From Deltaproteobacteria bacterium (lineage in GTDB: Bacteria > Myxococcota_A > Polyangia > HGW-17): a stretch of 64,000 bases of DNA. The DNA lies in contig JAFGWM010000006.1 of assembly GCA_016937155.1 (NCBI GenBank), positions 1-64,000 of the forward strand, in the 5' to 3' direction. Each line of letters begins with the position of its first letter. The stretch's first letter is position 1. The notes under the pieces are model-generated. The model did not search any database. It worked only from the letters and a program-made list of their open reading frames with translations, and was not told where the DNA came from. A program made the position numbers and the translations under genes. Below, piece by piece: positions 2,486-60,862 of the stretch.

Positions 2486-5175
2486 CTGACAATCCTCGGC
2501 TCATATACCATACCAAGTCGGAGAGCCACTGTTACGCTGTCGGACATTTCCTCCAGATATTCGTTCATATTAATCTGAATATTACTGAAGGAAGATTTGA
2601 ACCGCCGATCCATTGAACTTTCAAATCTGGCTATGTATGCCTGAAATGATTTTCCCGATAAACTTCTGGGATTATCATGAAAATCATCTGGAGTTATTTC
2701 ACCATTTGAAATCATTGAAATAACTGTTCTATCAATAAAATATCTCAATTCCTCCATTAGATCCGAAGCAAGAGCTGCATGTCGACCGTGTTGAACATGC
2801 ATAAATCCAGCCCTTGTATCAAGACCTGCTCTTATCAGTGCGCAATTAAGCCTGTGGTAGATAAGAGTATAGCCAAAGGAAAGCATCGCATTAACAGGGC
2901 CATCCGGGGGATGATAAATCCTGCCTTTAAATTCAAATGGGGAAAAAAATTCAGAGAGAGTATTAAAATAAAGTTTTGAAAAGTATCCTTCAACCCCTCG
3001 GAGTTCATCCATTGATGTAACAATTGCAAGTCGATCTTTTATATCGTAGAACCAGTCTGGATTTTTCTGATTTTTACCTTTACGCCTTAAAACTGCCATG
3101 CTGTTCATTAACTTGGCATTCACTATATTTTTAGCCCAAGAAAAGCAATACTCAGGATCAGAAAACATATGATACTGAGTAATATGTGCTGGAGTCCGAT
3201 ATTTCTGACGGTTAGTGATGAACTGAGCACTTATATCTCCTGATAGATACTGGAAAAAGACTGGTATTCCATGTTCGAGGCATCTTGAAAATACACCACC
3301 TGTAAGACGCTGTTTTCCGACAACAATAATCTGCCGTATTTTCATAAACGGAATTAATTCCTTTGGTTGATCATACTTTTCGAGAACCAGATTATTGTTT
3401 ATCGCTTGCACTTTTAAAACACGGCTGGTTATATATACGGTTCTGTGCCCGGTGTCGACTGCATTATAAATACCCCTCCAACCTTCATTTACGGGAAATA
3501 CAGAAGAAGTATCTTCATCAACTGGAGGATGAATTTGACCGCTTTTTATAAGAGTTCCGAGAAACTTGAATTGCGTATCAGGTGATATATCAGTTCGTTT
3601 GGATGGGTGAAGTGATAAACCCATTTTGTCGAGAATTCCACCTGCATATTCGTATATTTCGTTTATCTCATCACTACTTTTACATAGAATAATAAAATCA
3701 TCACTATAACGAACGATGGGCCATCTTACTGAAACAATACGATCAAAAACATCCATATAAAGATTGCTGAGAACCGGGGAGAGTGCATTACCCTGATTAA
3801 GCCCGGAAAATGATGAAGATGCGTGGTACAATTTATGAATAAGTTCAACCACAGGATCTTCGTGAAAAAGAGCCGTCAGAAGTTTCAGAATCGATCGGAT
3901 ATCAATGCTGTCGAAGAAGGACTTAATATCCAGCTTTAAACCAAAATAAAATCCATCAGAAAATAATTTGAGGTAACTTTCTATTGCTCCGGATGTATTA
4001 TGCTCTGCCCGGTAAGCATAATTAAATGGAGAAAGTAATTTTTCAGTCACCTTAACCAGATACGAAGATACGGATTTTTCAAGCAGCCTGTCAAAGATAT
4101 TGGAAATATGTATTACTCGAACCCCACCTTCGGGCTTTTCGAACTCATGAATTGAAGGTTTTTCAAATTTATACTGTCCTGCTTTTATCTGAGAACAGAA
4201 AAAATCAAGTCCTGAAACTCCAGCGGATATAATACTGTCAACTCCGATTCCATCAGGACCGGGTGTTTTATCTTTAAGGGATGGAAGAAATGAATGCAGT
4301 ACCATTGCATCCACAGCAGATTTGAAAACGGTTCTGTATCGTGGTAATTTTGATACAGGAGATATTTCTTCTAATTCAGGTATTTCATATAAACCAAGTC
4401 CCAGCGCAGTGTTGCGTCCAATTCCACGATAACCGGCCATAATAAAATCACTGAAACTGTCAGGAGTAAATGCTGGAACTCTTGTTCTTACATAACCGGC
4501 AATCCCACCTGTTGTTTTGGCATTTGAATCAGCACCCCAGGGGACATCAATCCATTTTAGATTAAAATTTTCCAGTATAAAATCATGACTTTGGTATTTT
4601 GTAAAAACCTGTTCAAAAACACGTTCTAGAGGAGACAAATTTTCGATAAACCATGATTCATCTATGAAAGAATGTCCTGGCTTTCTGTTTTCTGATTTCC
4701 TGAAAACACGGAAAGGAGTGTAAAAAATTATATTCATACTCTCGTGATTTTTAATAACCGGAAATAAATCATTGAAAACTCCGGCATCAATTGGAGAAAA
4801 TTCACCAGTTTTTGAGCTTGAATTTATTCTGCATTCAGCATTTTTGAATAAACAGGTTTTTCCGGGAATAAAGTGACCGTGAAAATCTGAAGTAGTTTTA
4901 TTATCTGCAAGAAATTCATAAAGTTTTTCAAAGCTGGACATTTCAGAAGAAGGGAATGAAATTCCTGTTGAAATAACATCACCTTGCATGTATTCAACAA
5001 TTCCCTGATCGGCAGGATTGACTCTGAATGGAAATTCATTCTGGTACTTTAGACCACTTCCCCTGCATGCATTTCGAAGAAAAGCTGACCACATAGGTCC
5101 ATGAAAAAACGGTAGTGAGCCAATGTTTTGAAGAACTTCAAATTCAAGTTTAATAAAATAATATTTTTCCAGCAT
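2482..5175 (-). CDS. cas1: Cas6-reverse transcriptase-Cas1 fusion protein
   Basis: This 897-residue protein holds three domains. Residues 1-265 look like Cas6: a RAMP-type opening with H25 as a candidate catalytic His, and a Gly-rich loop GYRGIGRNTALGLGLYEI at 248-265. Residues about 290-545 are a group II intron-type reverse transcriptase: KLDIKSFFDSID (D416), GLNQGNALSP (458-467), active site YSDD (490-493), and FLGTLI near 538. Residues about 565-897 are Cas1, with metal ligands E729 (GVEGYF), H793 (GFMHVQHGR) and D805/E808 (SDLMEELR). All catalytic residues are present, so both polymerase and integrase should be active. The same architecture in Marinomonas type III-B acquires spacers from RNA. 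No ribosome-binding site precedes the ATG at 5175, which may mean a leaderless mRNA. Confidence 0.95.
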   Translation of the reverse strand: MLEKYYFIKLEFEVLQNIGSLPFFHGPMWSAFLRNACRGSGLKYQNEFPFRVNPADQGIVEYMQGDVISTGISFPSSEMSSFEKLYEFLADNKTTSDFHGHFIPGKTCLFKNAECRINSSSKTGEFSPIDAGVFNDLFPVIKNHESMNIIFYTPFRVFRKSENRKPGHSFIDESWFIENLSPLERVFEQVFTKYQSHDFILENFNLKWIDVPWGADSNAKTTGGIAGYVRTRVPAFTPDSFSDFIMAGYRGIGRNTALGLGLYEIPELEEISPVSKLPRYRTVFKSAVDAMVLHSFLPSLKDKTPGPDGIGVDSIISAGVSGLDFFCSQIKAGQYKFEKPSIHEFEKPEGGVRVIHISNIFDRLLEKSVSSYLVKVTEKLLSPFNYAYRAEHNTSGAIESYLKLFSDGFYFGLKLDIKSFFDSIDIRSILKLLTALFHEDPVVELIHKLYHASSSFSGLNQGNALSPVLSNLYMDVFDRIVSVRWPIVRYSDDFIILCKSSDEINEIYEYAGGILDKMGLSLHPSKRTDISPDTQFKFLGTLIKSGQIHPPVDEDTSSVFPVNEGWRGIYNAVDTGHRTVYITSRVLKVQAINNNLVLEKYDQPKELIPFMKIRQIIVVGKQRLTGGVFSRCLEHGIPVFFQYLSGDISAQFITNRQKYRTPAHITQYHMFSDPEYCFSWAKNIVNAKLMNSMAVLRRKGKNQKNPDWFYDIKDRLAIVTSMDELRGVEGYFSKLYFNTLSEFFSPFEFKGRIYHPPDGPVNAMLSFGYTLIYHRLNCALIRAGLDTRAGFMHVQHGRHAALASDLMEELRYFIDRTVISMISNGEITPDDFHDNPRSLSGKSFQAYIARFESSMDRRFKSSFSNIQINMNEYLEEMSDSVTVALRLGMVYEPRIVR

Positions 5176-5181
5176 TGAATA

Positions 5182-5209
5182 ATTATATGTAAATATATGG
5201 ATTTTTGAA
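5182..5209 (-). promoter_or_regulatory. candidate cas operon promoter
   Basis: On the - strand there is a TATAAT at 5187-5182 and, 16 bases upstream, TTCAAA (5209-5204), which matches four of six bases of a sigma-70 -35 box. The -10 box ends only six bases before the ATG at 5175, so a transcript from it would be leaderless or nearly so. That fits the lack of a Shine-Dalgarno sequence. The region is AT-rich, so chance matches are likely. Confidence 0.4.
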
Positions 5210-5332
5210 GAAATTTATTGATTTATCATCATTTTAGTTTGAAAATTAAACCGTTGCATTCTGGAGCCGGCATTTACAATCAGTTAAAAATTGTAATGTC
5301 ATTGAAAACTGGATGGAACGCTGGAATAATGG

Positions 5333-5358
5333 CCCGGAGGAAACTCCGGGTTTTTTAT
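5333..5358 (+). terminator. intrinsic terminator-like hairpin
   Basis: CCCGGAG (5333-5339), a GAAA tetraloop, and CTCCGGG (5344-5350) form a 7-bp GC-rich stem followed directly by TTTTTTATTTT on the + strand. It has the form of a rho-independent terminator for + strand transcription, but no + strand gene lies upstream. On the - strand the same hairpin follows the malG stop codon by 23 bases and lacks a U-tract. It may therefore only weakly insulate the cas operon from malG transcription. Confidence 0.5.
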
Positions 5359-5373
5359 TTTATTTCTGGAAAA

Positions 5374-6225
5374 TCAGCCTTTGACGCCGCCGGCTGTGAG
5401 ACCGCCCACAAGGTGCTTTTGCAGAACATAGAAGAGAATCATGATGGGGAGAGATACGATAACGGAGCCCGCTGCGAATTTACCCCAGGATGTGCTGTGG
5501 GAACCTACGTAATGCTGAAGCATAACGGGAAGTGTGTATGCTGTTTCTTCGTTGAGGAAGGTTTCAGTTAAAATGTATTCGTTCCAGGCCGTCATGAAAC
5601 TGAAGAGTGCAGTAACAGCAAGGGCGGGTCTGGAAAGGGGAAGAACAACACGCCAGAACATGGAAAAGCGTGTGGCTCCGTCGATCCAGGCTGCTTCTTC
5701 GAGTTCTTTGGGGATTGTATCGAAATAACCTTTTAGCATCCAGACACAGAAGGGAATTGCCGTGGTTGAATACACTAAAACAAGCCCTGTCATGGAGTTT
5801 AAAAGCCCCAGTTTATCGAGAATTACATACAGTGGTATCATAATCAGCGTCGCCGGAAACATCTGCACCACTAAAAACATCGTAAGACCAATTTCCCTGC
5901 CGGCAAATCTGAATCGTGAAAAGCTGTAAGCCGCCGTGGAAGCCAGAAAGAGACCCATAATAGTTGTAATTAGACTGACAACCAGACTGTTGAGGAATTG
6001 GCGGGCAAAAAGTGAACGCCCGGCTGAATCTTTACTTGTGACAACATCTTTATAATGCTTGAGGGTTACCTCTTTGGGAACAGGATTAAGACTTCGGGAA
6101 AAGTTATCCCCGGGGGTGATGCTCTTGCGAACAACTAGCATTACGGGATACAGCGTCACAACAGTAAAAACTATGAGGAAAAGATGAGTGAAAAATAAAC
6201 GGATATTTGAATTATGGTTCATCAC
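5374..6225 (-). CDS. malG: maltose/maltodextrin ABC transporter permease MalG
   Basis: A 283-residue polytopic inner-membrane protein of the MalG family, close to the usual length. It has an N-terminal membrane segment (LFLIVFTVVTLYPVMLVV), further segments near residues 82-105, 115-135 and 145-165, and the EAA loop that docks on the ATPase (EEAAWIDGATRFSMFWRVVLP). With MalF it would form the translocation pore for maltodextrin. The start at 6225 overlaps the end of the broken malF by 14 bases. The reading frame is intact, but its partner MalF is truncated and no malE or malK is in the window, so the transporter is probably not functional unless another copy exists. Confidence 0.9.
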   Translation of the reverse strand: MMNHNSNIRLFFTHLFLIVFTVVTLYPVMLVVRKSITPGDNFSRSLNPVPKEVTLKHYKDVVTSKDSAGRSLFARQFLNSLVVSLITTIMGLFLASTAAYSFSRFRFAGREIGLTMFLVVQMFPATLIMIPLYVILDKLGLLNSMTGLVLVYSTTAIPFCVWMLKGYFDTIPKELEEAAWIDGATRFSMFWRVVLPLSRPALAVTALFSFMTAWNEYILTETFLNEETAYTLPVMLQHYVGSHSTSWGKFAAGSVIVSLPIMILFYVLQKHLVGGLTAGGVKG

Positions 6226-8696: not shown

Positions 8697-11369
8697 TTAT
8701 TTACGGGGAGAGGTAATCTGACTCTGGGCTGCCTTGATTATTGAACGATAAACCTTACCGGGACTCATTGAAATACCTGTGAGACCTATAAGATGAAGTC
8801 TGCTGATGGTATAAACATCGCCACCGTGTTCACCACAGATGAAAGTTTCAAATTTGGGATCAACACTGCGTGCTTCTTCCACAAAAGTTCTTACCATACG
8901 CTCCACTGCTGGGTGAATGGAAATAAAGGGATGTCTTTCAAAGAACTTGTTTTCCACATAAAGTGGGAGGAATTTATCAGCATCATCACGGCTAATTGCC
9001 AGTGTTGTCTGAGTAAGATCATTTGTTCCAAAGGACGCAAAACCATGGGCAGGATGTGCTTCAGGAGCGAATCCCGGCAATGTGGCTTTGAGAGCTTCAA
9101 CCATTGCTTTTCCACTGATTGCTGCTGCTGGAGTTTCCACCATTATACCGAATGCATAATTGACCCAGGAACCTGTTTTCTTGTGAATTTCAGTTGAAAC
9201 CTCACATGCTATTTTTTTGATTTCGAGAGCCTCTTTGGGTATTACCACCAGAGGAACTTCAATTTCCGGTTTAGGATCAAAACCTTCAGATTTCAGTTCT
9301 CTTGCGGCTTCGAGGATAGCACGAATCTGAGTTCTTGGTATTTCAGGATTGGTGATAGCCATACGAACACTTCTGTGTCCCAGCATTGGATTCTCTTCTT
9401 TCTCAAGATCACTGTCATGAGGGAAGAATTCATGTAAAGGAGCATCCAGAAGTCTGATTGTAACACCATGACCGGACATAACTTTCATTGAATGTTTGAA
9501 ATCCTCTTTTGAAAATTCATAGATTTTTTCAAGAGCTTTTTCACTTGCTGCATCATCATTTCCAAAAAGTACTGCCTGAATATGGGGGAGTCTGTCACCA
9601 AGGAACATATGTTCAGTTCTGAAAAGCCCGATTCCTCTTGCACCGTTATTATAGGCAGGCTGAGTTTCAGCGGCTTCAGCATTTGCACGAACGTCCATGG
9701 CTTTGATTTCCTGTGACCAGTCAAGGATCATCTGGGCACTTTCTTCCAGTTCGGTGGGAATGGTGGTGGGAACTGCACCGAGGAAAACTTCTCCAGTGGC
9801 ACCATTTATTGTAATAATATCTCCACCCTTAACAGTAAATTCACCGGATGTGAAAGTTCTTTCTTTCTTGTTGATGGTAATTTCACTGGCACCAACCACA
9901 GCAGGAATACCCCATGCGGTTGCCATAATTGCAGCATGAGAAACTTTAGTTCCAGTTGTGGTCAGAATGCCGCGACTGGCTTTCATTCCTTTAACGTCTT
10001 CCTGACTTGTCATTACTGTTACTAAAATTACATCTTCGCCTTTTCCTGAAAGTTCCAGTGCCTCATCCTGGGTGAAACATACTTTTCCACTGACTGCTCC
10101 CGGACTGGCGGCACTGCCTTTTGTGATAACAGTGGCTTCTTTTCTGTGAGCAGGTTCTATCTGGGGGAACAAAAGTTCTTCAAAGCGCTCAGGATTTACC
10201 ATCATCACGGCTTCTTCTTTTGTAACTATTCCCTCGGATTGCATTGCAGCAGCAATGACACTTTCAGCCTTTGCACTTCTTTTTCCATCTCTTATCTGCA
10301 ACCAGTAAAGGAGAGGTGTTCCATCTTTCTCTTCAATGGTAAACTCTGTATCCTGCATGTTTTTCAGAGTTTTTTCAAGACGATCACCCGTATCTTTCAT
10401 TTCCTGATAAATAGCTCTGAAAACATCCTCCTGATGATCCCTGAGAGCTTCCAGTGGAAGTGAGTTTCTGATGCCTGCAACAACATCCTCACCCTGTGCC
10501 TGGAATAAAACAGTGCCATCAAGATGATCATCGGATTTGTGTCCTGTACTTTTATCTCTGGTGAAGAAAACACCAGTGGCACATCTGTCATTTTTATTTC
10601 CGAATACCATCTCCTGAATGTTTACTGCGGTTCCCAGATCATCGCTGATACCTTCCTGTTTTCTGGTGAAAACAGCACGGTCATTGTTCCAGCTTCTGAA
10701 AACAGCTTCAGCTGATCTTACAACCTGCTCAACCGGATTCTGGGGGAACTTATGTCCGTATTTATCATAAATGGCTTTATATCTGTTTATGAGTTCCCTG
10801 AGTCCTTCAACATCAAGTTCAAGATCGTTTTTTGCGCCTTTTTCTTTTTTGAAACCGTCAAGTGTATGTTCAAAAGGATCTTCACCTTCAGAGTCTTTGA
10901 TCTGCAGTACAACATCACCATACATCTGAAGAAGTCTTCTGTATGAATCAAGCCAGAAACGTGCTTTATCACCAACAGCAAGGGTGTTGACGATTTCATC
11001 GGTAAGACCGATATTCAGAATTGTATCCATCATACCTGGCATTGAGAATTTTGCACCGCTTCTTGCGCTTACCAGAAGTGGATTTGCTTTATCCCCGAAT
11101 TTTTTCCCGGTGTTTTCTTCCATCTGTCTGAGGCCATCCTCTATTTCTTTAACCAAAGATTTTTTTAGTTGACCATCATCAAGATCATGAGAATGGAAAG
11201 TAGGAAGATTCAATACAACGGGGCATCTGAGATCAAGTACGCAGGTCATGAGATAAAGACCATAGCCCTTGCCACCGAGAAGAGTTTTTAGTTCATCGCG
11301 TGTTTTTGTTTCGAATTCGGGATATTTCTGTCCCTTGGCGAAAAAATATGTGTTTTTGAATTCGTTCAT
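8697..11369 (-). CDS. ppdK: pyruvate, phosphate dikinase
   Basis: The 890-residue enzyme interconverts pyruvate + ATP + phosphate with phosphoenolpyruvate + AMP + pyrophosphate in the cytoplasm. The start at 11369 is chosen because AAGGAGT lies seven bases upstream; an ATG 15 codons earlier has no such site. The N-terminal ATP-grasp part has the Gly-rich LLGGKGYGL and SARSGAKFSMPGMMDTILN. The swivelling domain carries the phospho-His in GTKVSHAAIMA (about H478). The C-terminal PEP-binding barrel has GLFRTEHMF and the catalytic Cys in CGEHGGD (about C845). The His loop differs from the usual GGMTSHAAV, so it belongs to a divergent PPDK branch. It stands alone, divergent from the methyltransferase gene. 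Confidence 0.93.
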   Translation of the reverse strand: MNEFKNTYFFAKGQKYPEFETKTRDELKTLLGGKGYGLYLMTCVLDLRCPVVLNLPTFHSHDLDDGQLKKSLVKEIEDGLRQMEENTGKKFGDKANPLLVSARSGAKFSMPGMMDTILNIGLTDEIVNTLAVGDKARFWLDSYRRLLQMYGDVVLQIKDSEGEDPFEHTLDGFKKEKGAKNDLELDVEGLRELINRYKAIYDKYGHKFPQNPVEQVVRSAEAVFRSWNNDRAVFTRKQEGISDDLGTAVNIQEMVFGNKNDRCATGVFFTRDKSTGHKSDDHLDGTVLFQAQGEDVVAGIRNSLPLEALRDHQEDVFRAIYQEMKDTGDRLEKTLKNMQDTEFTIEEKDGTPLLYWLQIRDGKRSAKAESVIAAAMQSEGIVTKEEAVMMVNPERFEELLFPQIEPAHRKEATVITKGSAASPGAVSGKVCFTQDEALELSGKGEDVILVTVMTSQEDVKGMKASRGILTTTGTKVSHAAIMATAWGIPAVVGASEITINKKERTFTSGEFTVKGGDIITINGATGEVFLGAVPTTIPTELEESAQMILDWSQEIKAMDVRANAEAAETQPAYNNGARGIGLFRTEHMFLGDRLPHIQAVLFGNDDAASEKALEKIYEFSKEDFKHSMKVMSGHGVTIRLLDAPLHEFFPHDSDLEKEENPMLGHRSVRMAITNPEIPRTQIRAILEAARELKSEGFDPKPEIEVPLVVIPKEALEIKKIACEVSTEIHKKTGSWVNYAFGIMVETPAAAISGKAMVEALKATLPGFAPEAHPAHGFASFGTNDLTQTTLAISRDDADKFLPLYVENKFFERHPFISIHPAVERMVRTFVEEARSVDPKFETFICGEHGGDVYTISRLHLIGLTGISMSPGKVYRSIIKAAQSQITSPRK

Positions 11370-37504: not shown

Positions 37505-38188
37505 ATGGAGATTGGAAAACTTGTCCTCGAATTCACGAAGGTGTTAGCGTGGCCGATCTTCACGCTGGTGCTGGTTTTGCTATTTAAAGGACCAATTAGC
37601 GACCTGATACGACGGATAAAAAAAGGAAGTCTGCTTGGTGGAATTGAGTTCGAAGCAGAGAAGGCGGAGATACTTCCTCCCAGTGAACAGAAGCGAAAAT
37701 TAGAAGCAGAGGTCAAGGAGGCTGCCGAGTCTCTCTCCTACGACAAGAAAGGGCCAGAGGAATACGACTCCAGTGCGTTAGCTCAAAAACTCGAACTCGC
37801 AGAAACGTTAGTCCTCAAGGATATCGAGGTTGAATATGGCGGCAACCTTAGGCGCCAAGTATACCTTTACGGTAATACCTTTGATGCGGTGACTTGGACA
37901 AGAAGAGGGGTAACTGCTATCGAAGTAAAAGTTATCGGGACAAAAGCAGACATTCGAACTTTCCGAACCTTATTTGAAAAGGCTGAGAATGTTGCAACAC
38001 AATATAAACGTAATATTTTCTCGTTTGTGCTAGCAATAGTAACGATTGACCAGTCGCCTGAAGATCGTGAAGGGTTACGGCAAAAGCTGGTGGATATAAA
38101 ACGCGATATGAGAGTCCCAATCGAAGTGCGGACATATGATCTATTGGAGTTAGAACAACGCTATGGCGTTTCAATTTCACAGGCCTAA
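37505..38188 (+). CDS. cassette 1: membrane-anchored PD-(D/E)XK nuclease-like protein
   Basis: 227 residues. An N-terminal membrane helix (VLAWPIFTLVLVLLF, 13-27) is followed by RRIKKGS on the cytoplasmic side. A charged, coiled-coil-like region spans residues 50-105. Then comes a strand-turn-strand unit with FDAV (D127) and AIEVKVI (E140, K142), the D...ExK core of the restriction-endonuclease-like fold (compare FDLV...AIEVK in many such nucleases). It is probably a nuclease tethered to the inner membrane, possibly acting on incoming DNA. The stop codon TAA lies within the attC left core. The ATG has CGAAGGAA about seven bases ahead. Function is inferred. Confidence 0.6.
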   Translation: MEIGKLVLEFTKVLAWPIFTLVLVLLFKGPISDLIRRIKKGSLLGGIEFEAEKAEILPPSEQKRKLEAEVKEAAESLSYDKKGPEEYDSSALAQKLELAETLVLKDIEVEYGGNLRRQVYLYGNTFDAVTWTRRGVTAIEVKVIGTKADIRTFRTLFEKAENVATQYKRNIFSFVLAIVTIDQSPEDREGLRQKLVDIKRDMRVPIEVRTYDLLELEQRYGVSISQA

Positions 38189-38254
38189 CCAGGTGCTCGT
38201 TCGGATGCAAACTATGCTGTGCTTCGTTTGTACCGCAAAGCTTAGACGTTATGC
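38183..38254 (+). other. attC recombination site of cassette 1
   Basis: Left core GCCTAAC at 38183-38189 and right core GTTATGC at 38248-38254 bracket 58 bases. Inside, CGGATGCAAAC pairs imperfectly with GTTTGTACCG around a short loop, the folded bottom strand that IntI recognises. The length of 72 bases is typical. Right core base 5 (T) deviates from GTTRRRY. Confidence 0.7.
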
Positions 38255-38333
38255 GTCAACCACAGATAAAAATTATAGTTTTTTAATTACCATTTATTTT
38301 TTTTAGAAGCGAATAATTTCAGGGCAGGTGTCT

Positions 38334-41300
38334 ATGACTAAACCTTTTAAGATTGAATCAGAAGATATTAATCGGCTGAACGATATTCAACTCACACAAC
38401 TGTTAAAAGAATTATTGCAAGCTGAAGCCTATAAATTTGGAATAGCGCAGCGGGCTGTAGAGGTTGCATTAAATATCCGTGTTGGAGATGGCGGAGAAGA
38501 TGGTCGTATAAGTTGGATTGACGGGCCTGACCAAACTGAATTTTTACCAAATCGTCTTACAATATTTCAAAATAAAGCCACGGAAATGTGGCCGGCGGCA
38601 TATGCCAATGAAATAATGACAACAGCAAGAAAAGGCATTCCAAGTGTTTTAAAGCCAAAGGTGGAAGAGGTATTGGATAATGGCGGCGCCTATGTAGTTT
38701 TTACAACACAAGAATTGAACACACAGCAAAAAGATGAACGTATAGCAGCTATAAGGAATAGGATCAGTGAACAAGGCAAAGCATATGCAGATACATGCAA
38801 TATTGCTATTTACGATGCTGCTCAAATATCTGCGTGGGTTAATAATTTTATATCGACAATAGCTTCAGTTCAACATTGGGTCGGGAGGCCAATGGAAAGA
38901 GGGTTGAAGCCCTTTAATATGTGGAGCGAAGATGAAGATTTGTCTCGCCTCCCTTTTTCAGCCGTAGATAGTAGAAAAGATATTGTGGCTACGCTTGTTG
39001 GACAGGTGGCAGAACCAAAATCTTGTTTTCGCATTATAGGTCTGTCTGGTTTGGGTAAAACAAGAACCGCCTTTCAGGTTTTTGTTGAGAATGAAGCCAT
39101 TAGAAATCTAGTTGTTTATGTCGATGCTAATCACGCTCCCACAATTGATGCGCTGATAGCAGATTGGGTTGGATTGGGTTTAAGAGCAATCTTGATAGTC
39201 GATAATTGCGAGTATCGCTTACATGAAAGAATAGCTAAAGAAGTTTGCCGTTCGAGTAGCCAGATAAGCCTATTGACGTTGGACTACAACTTGGAATCTG
39301 TTTCGGCACCAACGGTTTGTTTTAGGCTGTGCCCAATGACCGACAAAGAATTATTGCAGTTGTTAACCCCTATATACAAGAACCAACTGCCCGATCTTGA
39401 GAGAATCGCATTGTTTGCACAAGGGTTTCCCCAAATGGCCGTTTTATTGGCAGAAGCTCGCTTAACAGAAGACCCTCGGATTGGCGAACTTACAGAAGAC
39501 GAGTTGGCTAACAAGTTGCTATGGAGGCGTGGTGAATCTGAGAACCCTGAGCGGATAAAGGTACTGCAGGCTTGCTCTCTTTTTGATGTGTTTGGAGTTG
39601 AAAAAGAGGTAGAAAGTCAACTTGAATTTATTGCGACTATTGTTGGTGCAAGTATCGATAATGTATTCGAATGTGTGCAGGACTACTCAGAAAGAGGGTT
39701 GATTGACCGACGGGGTCGTTATGGCCAGGTTGTTCCAAAGCCATTGGCTATAAGATTAGCTGGCCAATGGTGGACAAAAACTAGAGAGCAAAAACAAATA
39801 GAACTAGTGGATAGTATTCCAGAAGGAATGATAGAAGGTTTTTGTCATCAAATAGAAAGGATGGATTTTCACACAAATGTTAAAGAATTAAGCGAGAAAC
39901 TATGTGGGCCCCAGCGCCCTTTTGGCCAAGCGGGCGTGATCTTATCGGATCGGGGTTCTAGACTCTTTCGCTCATTTGTAGTCGTGAACCCCGAAGCTAC
40001 CTGCGCTGCACTATATAAAGTATTGAATGATAGAAATAGCCAGCAGCTTTCTGCCATAGATGGTGCTATTCGAAGAAATTTAGTGTGGGCGCTTGAGAAA
40101 CTGTGTTTTCACTCAGAGATATTTCCTGAGGCAGCATGGTGCATGTTACTCTTGGCATCAGCCGAGAATGAAACATATGGCAACAATGCAACGGGAATGT
40201 TTGCTCAGTTATTCAGCATTTCTCTTTCTGGCACAGCGGCAACACCTAAAGCACGTTTTGCTCTCTTAAATAGGGCTTTAGAGTTGCATCAAGATTCTGT
40301 TGATATGGTTGTATTGAAAGCGCTTGAGCAGGCAATCAGTACCTATGGTGGCAGCCGTATGGTAGGCGCTGAGTACCAAGGCACTAAAGCCCCCCTTAAA
40401 GAATGGAAACCCATAATTTGGCAGGATATTTTTGATTACTGGCAAGAGGCCTTTAATTTACTGATTTTTCTGCTTGAACGGGGAGAGGCCCAGAAAGAAA
40501 AAGTACTCTCTGTTATAGGCCAATCAATACGTGGCTTTGTTAGTCGGGGTCGGCTGGAAATGTTAAATTCCGCAATCAATCAAATTGTGGCTGTTAATGG
40601 TAGATATTGGCCAGCTGCTTTAGAAAGTATTAAGCACACTTTTGAGTACGACTCAGAGGGAATGGAGAAAGAGGCCTTTGAATCGCTAAATAGTTGGCTG
40701 CAATTGCTTAGTCCAGATGAAGCGGCTTTACCAGAAAAATTAAAGATACTTGTGATCAACCCACCTTGGGAACACCACAAAGGAGATGACGGACATTATA
40801 TCGATGTTGCTTCTGAAAATGCCAAGGCTTTAGGTGTCGATGTTGCTAAGGATATAGAGGAATTGCTGCCTCATCTTAACTTGCTACTACAGGGTGAACA
40901 AAAGCAATCTTATTCCTTTGGCTATCAGTTAGCGCTTGACCTCACAGATTTAAGGCAGTTGCTGGAGAAATCTTTAGAGCAGCTTATAAATGCTGACCCT
41001 GCGAATCCGAGCTTTATCTTAGGGATATACCGTGGAATTTTCGAAAAATCACACGAGCAGTGGCAAGTTGATATCGATAAACTATTGGCTGATGAACGTC
41101 TTGTTCGTTTCTATCCAGATTTCATTCGCACTGGTAACATTCGGAAACTGCATCTTGATCAATTATTTGAATTAATTCGTAGCGGAGTTATCTCGCCCAA
41201 TAGCGCAAACGCATTAAGTTATGGAAGCGTCACCGCTGGCATTGATCAAACAACAATGATGGAATTCTGTCTATCTCTTGCGACGTTAGGCGGCAATGCA

Positions 41301-42101
41301 AGTTGGACAGCTTTGAATGTGATCTACATGTACTGTTTTGGCAATAAGGGAAGTATTAGAACACTTAGCGATCCGCTGAAACAGCTTGTTTCCAGCGTGC
41401 CTCTAAATAGAGAGCAGCAGGGCGCAACAACAGACACATATCATTGGCGTGACTTGGCGGAGAAGTTGTTAAAGGAACCGGATGAGGATTTTGCAATAGC
41501 ATTAACGAAACAGCTTATTGATGCTTGCCATCACGGTTTAAATCATGGAGATATATGGCATTATAATAAACCATTGCTACTTGATCTTATGCGTGAGTAC
41601 GTTGATAAACTATGGCCGATATTCGGAGATGCCATTATCCAGGCGGAGGGTATGGAGCGGTATTGGTTGCAACAATTGCTTGAACGTGAAAATAGTTTTT
41701 CGAACCAGTTACCTAGCGTCTTGTCTGTGGTACCGGTCGAGAGTGTTATCTCTTGGTGTGAGGAACAACCTGTATTAGGGCCGAGTTTTGTTGCTAGCTG
41801 TATAAATATCTTTGAAACAGCTGATGAGCAACAACGACCTTCAGATTTGTTTATAGCTTTGCTAGTGCGATTCGGTGACGATGAACGTGTAATAAGTGGC
41901 CTAAGGGCCAATATGGGTACTCGGGGATGGTCAGGCTCTCTAGTACCCTACCTCGAAGCTGACAAAGCTGCGCTTAGCTCTTTAATAGAGCATGAAAGTA
42001 ACAACGTAAGACTATGGGTGAAAGACCAAATTGCATACATCAATCGGCAAATAGATTCTGAGTCGATTAGAGACGAAGAGAGAGATTTAGGGCTATTCTA
42101 A
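38334..42101 (+). CDS. cassette 2: STAND-type NTPase with N-terminal nuclease-like domain (candidate anti-phage protein)
   Basis: 1255 residues from the ATG at 38334 (CAGG upstream; a GTG two codons earlier also fits). Residues about 20-110 resemble a PD-(D/E)XK nuclease variant: GDGGEDGR supplies Asp and IFQNKAT gives QxK, as in Mrr-like nucleases. From about 200 to 330 a STAND/NACHT-like ATPase follows: Walker A GLSGLGKT (236-243) and a Walker B-like AILIVDN (285-291). Residues 330-480 fit the helical and winged-helix parts. The remaining about 770 residues are helical with no obvious repeat, the place where a trigger would bind. Nuclease-NTPase-sensor is the layout of Avs and bNACHT defence proteins. 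Integron cassettes are known to carry such genes. Confidence 0.65.
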   Translation: MTKPFKIESEDINRLNDIQLTQLLKELLQAEAYKFGIAQRAVEVALNIRVGDGGEDGRISWIDGPDQTEFLPNRLTIFQNKATEMWPAAYANEIMTTARKGIPSVLKPKVEEVLDNGGAYVVFTTQELNTQQKDERIAAIRNRISEQGKAYADTCNIAIYDAAQISAWVNNFISTIASVQHWVGRPMERGLKPFNMWSEDEDLSRLPFSAVDSRKDIVATLVGQVAEPKSCFRIIGLSGLGKTRTAFQVFVENEAIRNLVVYVDANHAPTIDALIADWVGLGLRAILIVDNCEYRLHERIAKEVCRSSSQISLLTLDYNLESVSAPTVCFRLCPMTDKELLQLLTPIYKNQLPDLERIALFAQGFPQMAVLLAEARLTEDPRIGELTEDELANKLLWRRGESENPERIKVLQACSLFDVFGVEKEVESQLEFIATIVGASIDNVFECVQDYSERGLIDRRGRYGQVVPKPLAIRLAGQWWTKTREQKQIELVDSIPEGMIEGFCHQIERMDFHTNVKELSEKLCGPQRPFGQAGVILSDRGSRLFRSFVVVNPEATCAALYKVLNDRNSQQLSAIDGAIRRNLVWALEKLCFHSEIFPEAAWCMLLLASAENETYGNNATGMFAQLFSISLSGTAATPKARFALLNRALELHQDSVDMVVLKALEQAISTYGGSRMVGAEYQGTKAPLKEWKPIIWQDIFDYWQEAFNLLIFLLERGEAQKEKVLSVIGQSIRGFVSRGRLEMLNSAINQIVAVNGRYWPAALESIKHTFEYDSEGMEKEAFESLNSWLQLLSPDEAALPEKLKILVINPPWEHHKGDDGHYIDVASENAKALGVDVAKDIEELLPHLNLLLQGEQKQSYSFGYQLALDLTDLRQLLEKSLEQLINADPANPSFILGIYRGIFEKSHEQWQVDIDKLLADERLVRFYPDFIRTGNIRKLHLDQLFELIRSGVISPNSANALSYGSVTAGIDQTTMMEFCLSLATLGGNASWTALNVIYMYCFGNKGSIRTLSDPLKQLVSSVPLNREQQGATTDTYHWRDLAEKLLKEPDEDFAIALTKQLIDACHHGLNHGDIWHYNKPLLLDLMREYVDKLWPIFGDAIIQAEGMERYWLQQLLERENSFSNQLPSVLSVVPVESVISWCEEQPVLGPSFVASCINIFETADEQQRPSDLFIALLVRFGDDERVISGLRANMGTRGWSGSLVPYLEADKAALSSLIEHESNNVRLWVKDQIAYINRQIDSESIRDEERDLGLF

Positions 42102-42130
42102 CTTTGAATCAATATCTATTGGGGACAACC

Positions 42131-42202
42131 ACATAACAAATCACTGCACTGGATTTTTACTCCGCTGCGCTGCATAAAAACCGGTTACGCGCAACGTTAT
42201 AC
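42131..42202 (+). other. attC recombination site of cassette 2
   Basis: Left core ACATAAC at 42131-42137 and right core GTTATAC at 42196-42202. CTGGATTTTTA (42150-42160) pairs with TAAAAACCGG (42175-42184) around a GC-rich loop TCCGCTGCGCTGC. This is the classic attC hairpin, of a kind common in marine gammaproteobacterial integrons, which hints that the cassette came from outside the host lineage. Confidence 0.82.
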
Positions 42203-57965: not shown

Positions 57966-58598
57966 TCAGTCTGGATCAGCTATGAACCAGCCGTCATTAA
58001 TTCTTTTCATTTTTAAACTGGAAACATCGGAATACGGAAGTATAGCAGTGCTTTCATTTATAAAAATAATCTGATCCTTTGCCTTTTCAAGTTGGGAAAG
58101 GAGTGACTTTATACGTGGATTTTTTAAACTGAAAATTTTAGCCAGCTCAACTGGGCTTATACTTACACGGTATTCTTCGATAAGAAGTGACGAGATGATG
58201 TCCACCCTCTGAAATTTAAGAGCTCTAACAAACGATTTTACAGTATCCTCAGGTGTTGAATTTCTGTATTCAGGAAAAGGAATTCCAGTAAATTTCCAAC
58301 CATCTGAAGAATTTATCAGTTTTACAGAGGTTCCCTCAATATCAAGCTCTGCACTATAAATATATTTCGCTTTTCCAGCTATTTTTACACATCTGCGTAC
58401 TTTTTCCCGTGAAAGTCTTTTGTAATCTTCAGGGGAATTGATCTTATTGTTCTTTTCAGAAGTGAGCCTGAATATTTCCTTTCCATGGTGTTCCTTCCAT
58501 GCCTGACACCAGTTTGAATAAACAGAAGATGGTCTGTTACCGGAAGAACACGATATGGTTAAAAATAATACAAATATAGAAAGGGTTATTTTATTCAT
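57966..58598 (-). CDS. lipoprotein of unknown function
   Basis: 210 residues with a signal peptide and lipobox LTISC. The mature part is mixed alpha/beta; residues 110-200 contain STPEDTVKSFVRALKFQRVD and end in a GWFIADPD strand, a pattern seen in NTF2-like or DUF4878-type lipoproteins. Its ATG shares ATGA with the stop of the pseudokinase gene, so it is in the same transcript. Role unknown. Confidence 0.7.
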   Translation of the reverse strand: MNKITLSIFVLFLTISCSSGNRPSSVYSNWCQAWKEHHGKEIFRLTSEKNNKINSPEDYKRLSREKVRRCVKIAGKAKYIYSAELDIEGTSVKLINSSDGWKFTGIPFPEYRNSTPEDTVKSFVRALKFQRVDIISSLLIEEYRVSISPVELAKIFSLKNPRIKSLLSQLEKAKDQIIFINESTAILPYSDVSSLKMKRINDGWFIADPD

Positions 58599-60862
58599 TT
58601 TGTCTGATATTGCTTTGCAAAGAATTCCTTCAGTGTAAGACTTGGGAAGTGCATATAGGACTTATTGTATATCTCAATTGCCTTCTTCTCGTTTTTATCA
58701 AGTACACTGATGGCGTTTATCATTCTTCTTACCTGAATCCAGTTTTTAGAGTCAAAACGTTTTTTCAGATCTTCAAGCATTTTTGTTTTAAGTTTTTTCC
58801 CCATTTCCGGCCAGAGTTTTTTGAGTTTCCGGTCAACTCTTTTAGCCTTGGGATATTCTTCTGCCATTGCCATATAAACTGAAAGAGTGCTGTTTTTAGG
58901 GTCTGAAATCAGGTTGGCGTCATCCTTGAATAATTTCAGATACATTTTGTAGAGTTTTTTAAGATTTGTTTCCGGATTTCTTTCCCACAAAGGTGCAGCG
59001 GGATAAACCGGAAGAAATCCCAAAAGTTCCCTGAAGGAGATTTTCGCTTTTTTTCCTTTTCTTGAGAAATAAAAATCAACCATTGTTTTAAAATTCAATG
59101 TATTGGCATCGTTGGGAATAAGGGTGTTGAAAGTCCTGATAACCCTCTCCATGAATATTTTGTTGTCATGATATTTATCAAGATATCCAAGAGAAAATAC
59201 TGTTTTGAAAAGTTCTCCTGATAGTTTTGAAGCGGTTTTCTTTGCTTCCGGAGAGTTTACTGCCATGATACTCATAATCAACTCTGATGCTGATTTCCCA
59301 TCTCCGGCAGTTTTTTCGGGAATAAGTCCGGATTTTGCCTTGAGAAGTTCATTGATTTTACCCGATGTTTCCTTGATATCAACTTTGTCAGAGACAATGA
59401 ATTGTGGTGGTGGTGCCGGTTTCACTTTTCTGAGTACATTTTCAAGATTATCAACTGCATCTTTTGCAAAAATATCCTTATAAAGGAATTTGTTTGCACC
59501 AAAAATTCCACCAACTATGGCACCTGCAAGAATGATAACACCAATTATCCCCCACACAAGTTTGCCTTTTTTCCGTTTTTCAGCTGCCATTGATTCAGCT
59601 TCTTCTCTTCTTGCTTCAGCAGCTTTAATATCTTCAACCTTTACAGCCTGAAAAACGCCTGTCTGTCCGGTGCGAACCGAGAATTTTCTTCTGTCCTCAC
59701 TACTTAGATCCACCTGTCCATCCCGGTATTTCTCTTCAAGGGATTTTTCAGAATCAGATATGGTTCCGGTTCCTTCCTTCACATTCATCAGGTCATCGGC
59801 CTTCACCGGTGCTGCTTCCTCGTTTTCTTCACCCTTTTTGAACCATAAAGTCTCTCTGAATCCTCCCTTTCTTCTTCTTCGCGGACTTCTTCTTCCAGGA
59901 TCATCCTCATTTTCAACCGGAGGTAAATCCTGCACAGTTTTGAGAGGTTCCTCTTTGGCAGCCGCTGGCTGTGGAACTTCCTGAGGGGGGGGTTCAACTG
60001 GAGGATTCACCTCAGGACCTGGTATAGCAACTGCTTCCTTTTTTTCTTCCGGAACGGCGGGATTAAATACATTTTTCATCTCGTTGATGAAGAAATTAAA
60101 ATCAGGGTATCTGGAATTTGAGGTGCTGCTGAGGCCTTTTAACACAAAATTATCAAAAGCAGCGGGAAGGCCAAGATCTCCCCTCACAGAAGACGGGAGA
60201 GGGGGAGTAGCGTGCTTGTGTTTTTCAATGAGTGATGCGGGATCCCCATCGGTATAGGGTGGCATACCGAGAATCATGTAATACAGCATACATGTGAGGC
60301 TGTAAATCGAACCTGGAACACCGGGGTCCATACCATTGGCCTGCTCCGGAGACATAAACCAGGGATCACCGAAAATACCCTGAGCAATGGACTGAGCGAC
60401 GCCGAATCCCATGAGTGTAACGGTTCCGTCCTGATTCAGATAAATATTGGAGGGACCCAGTTCCCGATGAAAAACACCATACGTTGAAGCATCCCTGAGT
60501 ATTGAAGCCATGCTTTCCACGTATGAAACAGCCTCATTCCACGGAATGACTCCCTGTGCAATTCTTGTGCTGAGCGCCGTTCCTTCCGGGGGAACATAAG
60601 CAGTATAAAGTCTCCCATCAGGAAGTACATTGAAATGAACTGTTTTTGCACAGCCATTTACACTGCCTGAGGAAACAATTTCTTTTCTTGCTCTTTCAAC
60701 AGCCTCTGGTGAAGGTAAAGCCTCAGGACGTACAATCAGTACATTAACTGCTGCCCCTGACATTTTATCGGTAGCCTGGTATATATCACCAACTGGTCTT
60801 CCCTCTATAAGGTTGCCTAGTACAAACCTTCCATCCAACTCATAGGTTTGCTGATCAGTCAT
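58595..60862 (-). CDS. membrane-anchored serine/threonine pseudokinase
   Basis: 755 residues. The N-terminal 270 residues follow the Hanks-type kinase fold, but key residues are gone: the VAIK Lys is Asn40 (AAVNVLIV), HRD is H132-R-E134 (FHRELGPSNIYL; Asn139 kept), and the DFG Asp is Gly152 (LMGFGVAQ). WFMSPEQANG and the later SIYSLTCMLYYMILG remain. A Pro/Glu-rich linker follows (280-370), then a basic segment, a membrane helix (about 436-460, VWGIIGVIILAGAIVGGIFG) and a helical extracytoplasmic domain. It cannot phosphorylate by the normal mechanism, so it should be a scaffold or sensor. It opens a group with the lipoprotein and PEGA genes. Confidence 0.85.
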   Translation of the reverse strand: MTDQQTYELDGRFVLGNLIEGRPVGDIYQATDKMSGAAVNVLIVRPEALPSPEAVERARKEIVSSGSVNGCAKTVHFNVLPDGRLYTAYVPPEGTALSTRIAQGVIPWNEAVSYVESMASILRDASTYGVFHRELGPSNIYLNQDGTVTLMGFGVAQSIAQGIFGDPWFMSPEQANGMDPGVPGSIYSLTCMLYYMILGMPPYTDGDPASLIEKHKHATPPLPSSVRGDLGLPAAFDNFVLKGLSSTSNSRYPDFNFFINEMKNVFNPAVPEEKKEAVAIPGPEVNPPVEPPPQEVPQPAAAKEEPLKTVQDLPPVENEDDPGRRSPRRRRKGGFRETLWFKKGEENEEAAPVKADDLMNVKEGTGTISDSEKSLEEKYRDGQVDLSSEDRRKFSVRTGQTGVFQAVKVEDIKAAEARREEAESMAAEKRKKGKLVWGIIGVIILAGAIVGGIFGANKFLYKDIFAKDAVDNLENVLRKVKPAPPPQFIVSDKVDIKETSGKINELLKAKSGLIPEKTAGDGKSASELIMSIMAVNSPEAKKTASKLSGELFKTVFSLGYLDKYHDNKIFMERVIRTFNTLIPNDANTLNFKTMVDFYFSRKGKKAKISFRELLGFLPVYPAAPLWERNPETNLKKLYKMYLKLFKDDANLISDPKNSTLSVYMAMAEEYPKAKRVDRKLKKLWPEMGKKLKTKMLEDLKKRFDSKNWIQVRRMINAISVLDKNEKKAIEIYNKSYMHFPSLTLKEFFAKQYQTK

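Follow-up and report, generated by a model that had tools for sequence, protein, structure and literature searches.

PD-λ-4 is described by Vassallo et al. 2022 (PMC9519451) as one of 21 loci obtained by selection of E. coli fosmid clones that survived phage, and is listed in a review with a P-loop NTPase domain (PMC10952713). It is defined by two genes, PD-Lambda-4_A and PD-Lambda-4_B (PADLOC PDLC03989-03992). The homologue in E. coli O104:H4 has 1283 aa, scores 2531 bits against the PADLOC A model, and is followed 49 bases downstream by PD-Lambda-4_B, in an island beside tmRNA. Among larger defense proteins, Avs1-4 carry nuclease effectors that cleave phage and host DNA once phage packaging proteins are recognized (PMC12931631). 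Defense-type genes also occur as integron cassettes (Darracq et al. 2025; Kieffer et al. 2025; via PMC12409362), and in that review such systems are said to be miniaturized and streamlined to cassette size, with large systems absent. The locus described here touches on all three: a full-length PD-λ-4A-type gene, predicted to encode an NLR-like protein, in what appears to be a single integron cassette. It lies in a 64,000 nt stretch of contig JAFGWM010000006.1, from the assembly of a Deltaproteobacteria bacterium, hereafter the window. The gene and the regions of its product are as follows.

38334..42101, plus strand: PD-Lambda-4_A-family CDS, 1255 aa (ORF; PADLOC PDLC03991 over the full length, E 7.1e-90)
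38334..38903, plus strand: predicted N-terminal PD-(D/E)xK-type nuclease domain, residues ~1-190 (two alignments; AF2 secondary structure)
38931..39773, plus strand: STAND-like NTPase and winged-helix region, residues ~200-480 (Foldseek; weak Pfam matches in relatives)
39039..39065, plus strand: Walker A, GLSGLGKTR, residues 236-244 (G236, G239, G241, K242 and R244 invariant)
39186..39209, plus strand: Walker B, AILIVDNC, residues 285-292 (D290 and C292 invariant)
39831..42098, plus strand: HEAT-like alpha-solenoid, putative sensor, residues 500-1255 (AF2; Foldseek)

The ORF is unbroken from the ATG at 38334 to a stop ending at 42101 (1255 codons), with an alternative in-frame GTG start possible at 38328. 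Sequence searches of Pfam, NCBIfam and the PDB returned no significant match to the encoded protein, and a profile search of the PDB gave marginal matches alone, to plant NLR and designed-repeat proteins. In contrast, PADLOC PDLC03991 (PD-Lambda-4_A) aligned residues 5-1251 with positions 4-1279 of its 1283 (300 bits). A reading of the locus made from the letters alone (the sequence-only reading) had proposed a possible new anti-phage family; this match overturns that proposal, the protein being a full-length relative of PD-λ-4A, the large subunit of an E. coli system that came out of selection against phage lambda. The same reading had called for comparison with Avs1-4 and bNACHT, and no PADLOC model for Avs1-5 or bNACHT matched the protein.

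Eighteen full-length relatives from Pseudomonadota, Cyanobacteriota, Spirochaetota, Acidobacteriota and Halobacteria, with 19–96% identity to the window protein, were aligned with it end to end. PADLOC assigned all 19 sequences to PD-Lambda-4_A and to no other family, and the protein is therefore called neither Avs nor bNACHT. Seven residues of the nuclease region (D52, G53, G54, D56, Q79, K81 and E93) are invariant in 19/19, as are seven around Walker A and B (G236, G239, G241, K242, R244, D290 and C292), giving the motifs D52-GGxD...Q79-x-K81, GxSGxGKTR and DNC. The nuclease-like QxK noticed earlier at the N-terminus is thus real and conserved (Q79-N-K81, within FQNK). D52, Q79, K81, K242 and D290 are shared with the E. 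coli homologue, which resembles the window protein in the full-length homology of the large subunit, in size (1283 and 1255 aa) and in the same invariant nuclease and Walker residues. The two differ in that they are only ~20% identical, that the window protein belongs to a separate, fully supported clade, and that B is missing from its cassette and genome. Given the ~20% identity and the lack of B, the published activity is not simply transferable.

An AF2 model of residues 1-530, built with a 17-sequence alignment, had a mean pLDDT of 77. Its N-terminus consists of a helix (17-34), three strands (42-45, 58-61 and 76-81), a second helix (108-115) and a fourth strand (119-124); the third strand carries QxK, and D52 precedes the second. 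This alpha-beta-beta-beta-alpha-beta order, with invariant D52, Q79 and K81, is the plan of PD-(D/E)xK enzymes, in which D and (D/E/Q)xK stand on adjacent strands, and the domain is predicted to be a nuclease of that type. The model of residues 1-530 was matched by Foldseek to ORC (E 2e-7), Apaf-1 (3e-7), Avs3 (4e-7) and Avs4 (2e-5; the Avs entries being PDB 8dgc and 8dgf), and further to plant NLR resistosomes, NLRP3/9 and CED-4, with E ~1e-7 to 1e-4 over the whole set. The relatives gave weak Pfam matches to AAA_16, NB-ARC, nSTAND3 and nSTAND5. A STAND NTPase is favored by the model over another AAA+ branch, but not proven, because the TM-scores are low (0.2–0.33) and the AAA+ proteins ORC, RFC and RuvB have E-values like those of Apaf-1, Avs and NLR proteins. 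For residues 500-1255 AF2 predicted (mean pLDDT 83) an almost entirely helical solenoid of ~45 helices, with SF3B1, importin-beta, CAND1, transportin and CRM1 as the best Foldseek matches. No TPR or LRR model matches this part, in agreement with the sequence-only reading, and the putative sensor is best described, from the predicted fold, as a HEAT-like alpha-solenoid. The effector, STAND-like NTPase and helical sensor plan that had been read from the sequence is therefore borne out by the predicted architecture: had structure prediction shown no ATPase or nuclease fold, the earlier reading would have lost its ground, and both appear.

This predicted plan is shared with Avs3 and Avs4 (AVAST), from which the window protein differs in its HEAT-like solenoid, with no Avs among the first 50 Foldseek matches of that part, and in being shorter (1255 residues against 2028 and 1534 in the PDB entries). 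Plant NLR resistosomes and Apaf-1 have the NTPase core fold and the same order of effector, NTPase, winged helix and repeats; they differ from the window protein, which has a predicted nuclease effector and a HEAT-like rather than an LRR or WD40 sensor, and the structural likeness is remote only.

These comparisons suggest how the protein could act. It is probably, though with some room for doubt, a one-gene defense protein of the PD-λ-4A family that senses a phage ligand, oligomerizes and cleaves DNA, and that travels as an integron cassette. The order of sensing, assembly and cleavage is proposed by analogy with Avs1-4 (PMC12931631). In the resting state the NTPase module would keep the protein inactive; infection would bring in a ligand for the HEAT-like solenoid, a phage protein being the likeliest candidate. 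Binding of ATP could then make the protein oligomerize in the manner of Avs and NLR proteins, which would bring the N-terminal PD-(D/E)xK domains together to cut DNA, so that the phage is stopped and the cell probably killed. The presence of ORC, RFC and RuvB among the matches for residues 1-530 would also fit a motor that binds foreign DNA directly, the QxK domain cutting phage or plasmid DNA with no protein trigger, and in PMC9519451 direct immunity, not abortive infection, was found for 7 of 11 DNA-binding or -cleaving systems. Such direct sensing is unlikely, however, as the 770-residue solenoid is of a fold type that binds proteins in its best structural matches, the Apaf-1, Avs and NLR matches are equally strong, and neither a methylase nor any other gene for self-marking is present. 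A phage-triggered sensor-nuclease of one gene thus stays the preferred reading, and the PD-λ-4A cassette gene would be a compact candidate of this kind.

The surroundings of the gene were compared with a contig (DEIG01000024.1, L014) from a Methylococcaceae metagenome-assembled genome (MAG), which has 96% nucleotide identity over window positions 38247-42182 and gives the following outline.

38183..38254, plus strand: attC-like site of the upstream cassette (GCCTAAC...GTTATGC), left crossover (sequence; identity with L014 sets in at GTTATG)
38249..42196, plus strand: putative integron cassette, ~3,948 bp, G/TT to G/TT (the same segment stands in L014 behind another upstream attC)
42131..42202, plus strand: attC of the PD-λ-4A cassette (CATAAC...GTTATAC) (sequence; folding of the copy in L014)

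At the left edge, identity between the two contigs starts at GTTATG, with its G/TT crossover, and the attC-like site upstream is a different one in L014. At the right edge it passes the first half of attC and fades in the last bases before GTTA. The L014 copy of the right attC folds better than chance (z -2.6; 2/200 shuffles), whereas the 3' arm of the window copy has diverged and its fold is no better than chance. Neither attC-like site in the window is significant by fold or symmetry alone, and the status of the cassette is therefore taken from the comparison with L014. By these limits of identity, 38249-42196 appears to be a single gene cassette with G/TT at both boundaries; the earlier suggestion that the gene fits wholly in one large mobile cassette is thus upheld by the limits of identity, not by the shape of attC. 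PD-λ-4 itself is found in a tmRNA-linked island or prophage-type contig. No IntI integrase (TIGR02249) scored above cut-off in the window's assembly, which is 95% complete, and below cut-off there were Xer-like partial matches alone to the integron integrase model. With no such integrase and attC-like sites that are not significant, the window locus amounts to no more than a pair of cassettes that lacks an integrase close by. An empty-site comparison by way of the downstream peroxiredoxin gene found no syntenic relative.

A consensus scan upstream of the gene revealed no convincing promoter of its own. Together with the diverged 3' arm of attC, and with an assembly in which no integrase lies close to the gene or passes the cut-off, this could mean that the gene is silent, functionless cargo in the window's genome. 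That is very improbable: the ORF is intact over 1255 codons, the leader ahead of the start codon is conserved in L014 and in part also in a Holophagae contig (Acidobacteriota, L015), and dN/dS, from codon differences, is 0.18 between the window gene and that of L014 and 0.22 for that of L015. The gene is under purifying selection between hosts.

The L015 gene has 88% protein and 90% nucleotide identity to that of the window; the match spans window positions 38301-42132, without attC, and the gene lies at a contig edge. L014 and L015 are both metagenome-assembled, and mis-binning of either host is possible; the evidence for the cassette boundaries does not depend on the host name. With both hosts named from MAGs, the sequence similarity indicates transfer of the cassette gene between phyla. 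A 3.95 kb cassette that carries a whole predicted NLR-like sensor, with 96% and 88% identity across phyla, shows that the size limit on integron defense genes is softer than stated.

L014 is itself an array, with attC-like sites at 4877-4927, 5795-5915 and 9801-9866. Ahead of the PD-λ-4A cassette it carries (3600-5915) a gene for an FRG-domain protein (PADLOC PDC-S15) and one of HNH type, each followed by an attC-like site; the HNH-type assignment is our reading of a motif. The three cassettes together look like a small defense array. In the MAG that contains L014, a frame of 183 aa matches the last third of the IntI model with 134 bits.

Proteins of the A type occur across Bacteria and in haloarchaea, with a patchy distribution. 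Genomes with PD-Lambda-4_A numbered 5/379 of those sampled in the window's phylum (its own included), 10/398 in Pseudomonadota and 9/247 in Acidobacteriota. Relatives are found on plasmids, in prophage-type contigs and in islands beside integrases, RT/Abi, toxin-antitoxin and phosphorothioation-related genes. Plasmids are a frequent location, with 45 PLSDB records, and the deposited phage collection yielded no relative. A search of viral contigs, queried with the window protein and the proteins closest to it, gave no match. The plasmid records and the empty phage collection might be explained by a defense aimed mainly at plasmids or competing mobile elements, serving the carrier element rather than acting against phages. 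This is decidedly unlikely, as the E. coli PD-λ-4 family came from a selection against phage (PMC9519451), and relatives lie in prophage-type contigs, a usual site of inter-phage defense. Defense against phages therefore remains the favored role. Two copies of the A gene in viral contigs (L061, 2728-6619; L054, 6001-9840) are broken by a frameshift or stop, which suggests frequent loss in prophage-type contexts. On the Pseudanabaena plasmid pPg_05 (L004, 1-9753), a 64%-identical relative lies between a phosphorothioation-associated cluster, which contains a DUF4007 gene and a methyltransferase, and a tyrosine integrase.

PD-Lambda-4_B (PDLC03992) had no match in the genomes of the window, L014 and L015 or in two plasmids, and with B missing from cassette and genome the locus falls outside the two-gene definition of PD-λ-4. 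When all fetched loci were searched by tblastn, B was found beside three A genes only (L050, L025 and L018, the last being the E. coli O104:H4 locus), and in a tree of 41 family members these three cluster at a single tip. The clade to which the window protein belongs, with L014, L015 and the Pseudanabaena plasmid, is separate from this tip and fully supported. The genes downstream of A differ between loci or are missing, and in L051 an unrelated-looking gene of 306 aa stands beside A. The simplest reading is that A is ancestral and usually stand-alone, with B a local addition; divergent partners beneath the reach of tblastn may exist. In L018 (9898-10810), PD-Lambda-4_B is present as two ORFs, one of 248 aa and the other of 51 aa, which align with successive stretches of the 303-position model, and from this layout B may be frameshifted in E. 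coli O104:H4; the L050 copy appears to be split in the same way.

The protein family is known, and what is new is the B-less clade and a full-size NLR-like protein within one 3.95 kb cassette; a literature search, mostly of journals open without subscription, found no published description of either the clade or the single-gene cassette form. Judged by the tree, the PD-λ-4 family seems to consist mainly of single genes, across Bacteria and haloarchaea, and annotation rules that ask for two components would overlook such members. A wider proposal can be put forward tentatively, at somewhat less than even odds: that PD-λ-4A-type proteins are pan-prokaryotic, stand-alone NLR-like sensors outside Avs, each recognizing a conserved phage component, with B a late and local acquisition and the gene mobile between phyla as a cassette. 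In that case most of the family falls outside the published two-gene definition, and full-size NLR-like immunity can cross phyla as a single integron cassette.

Immediately upstream of the cassette is one further ORF.

37505..38188, plus strand: orphan gene, 227 aa, before the first attC (ORF; absent from all relatives' loci)

Its product carries a membrane segment at the N-terminus as well as a D...EVK motif (FDAVTWTRRGVTAIEVKV), and by sequence may be a PD-(D/E)xK nuclease anchored in the membrane. Searches of plasmids, of viral contigs and of 237 genomes from the phylum found no relative. The gene was considered as a partner of the PD-λ-4A protein and rejected, being beside none of the relatives; since it lies directly before the first attC, it is probably a cassette of its own and not part of the PD-λ-4A system. 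Farther along the window, on the minus strand (58595-60862), is a gene for a 755-aa protein with an N-terminal part that matches PADLOC PD-T4-6 kinase models (E 3e-37), and which is probably an ordinary Ser/Thr kinase, not necessarily involved in defense.
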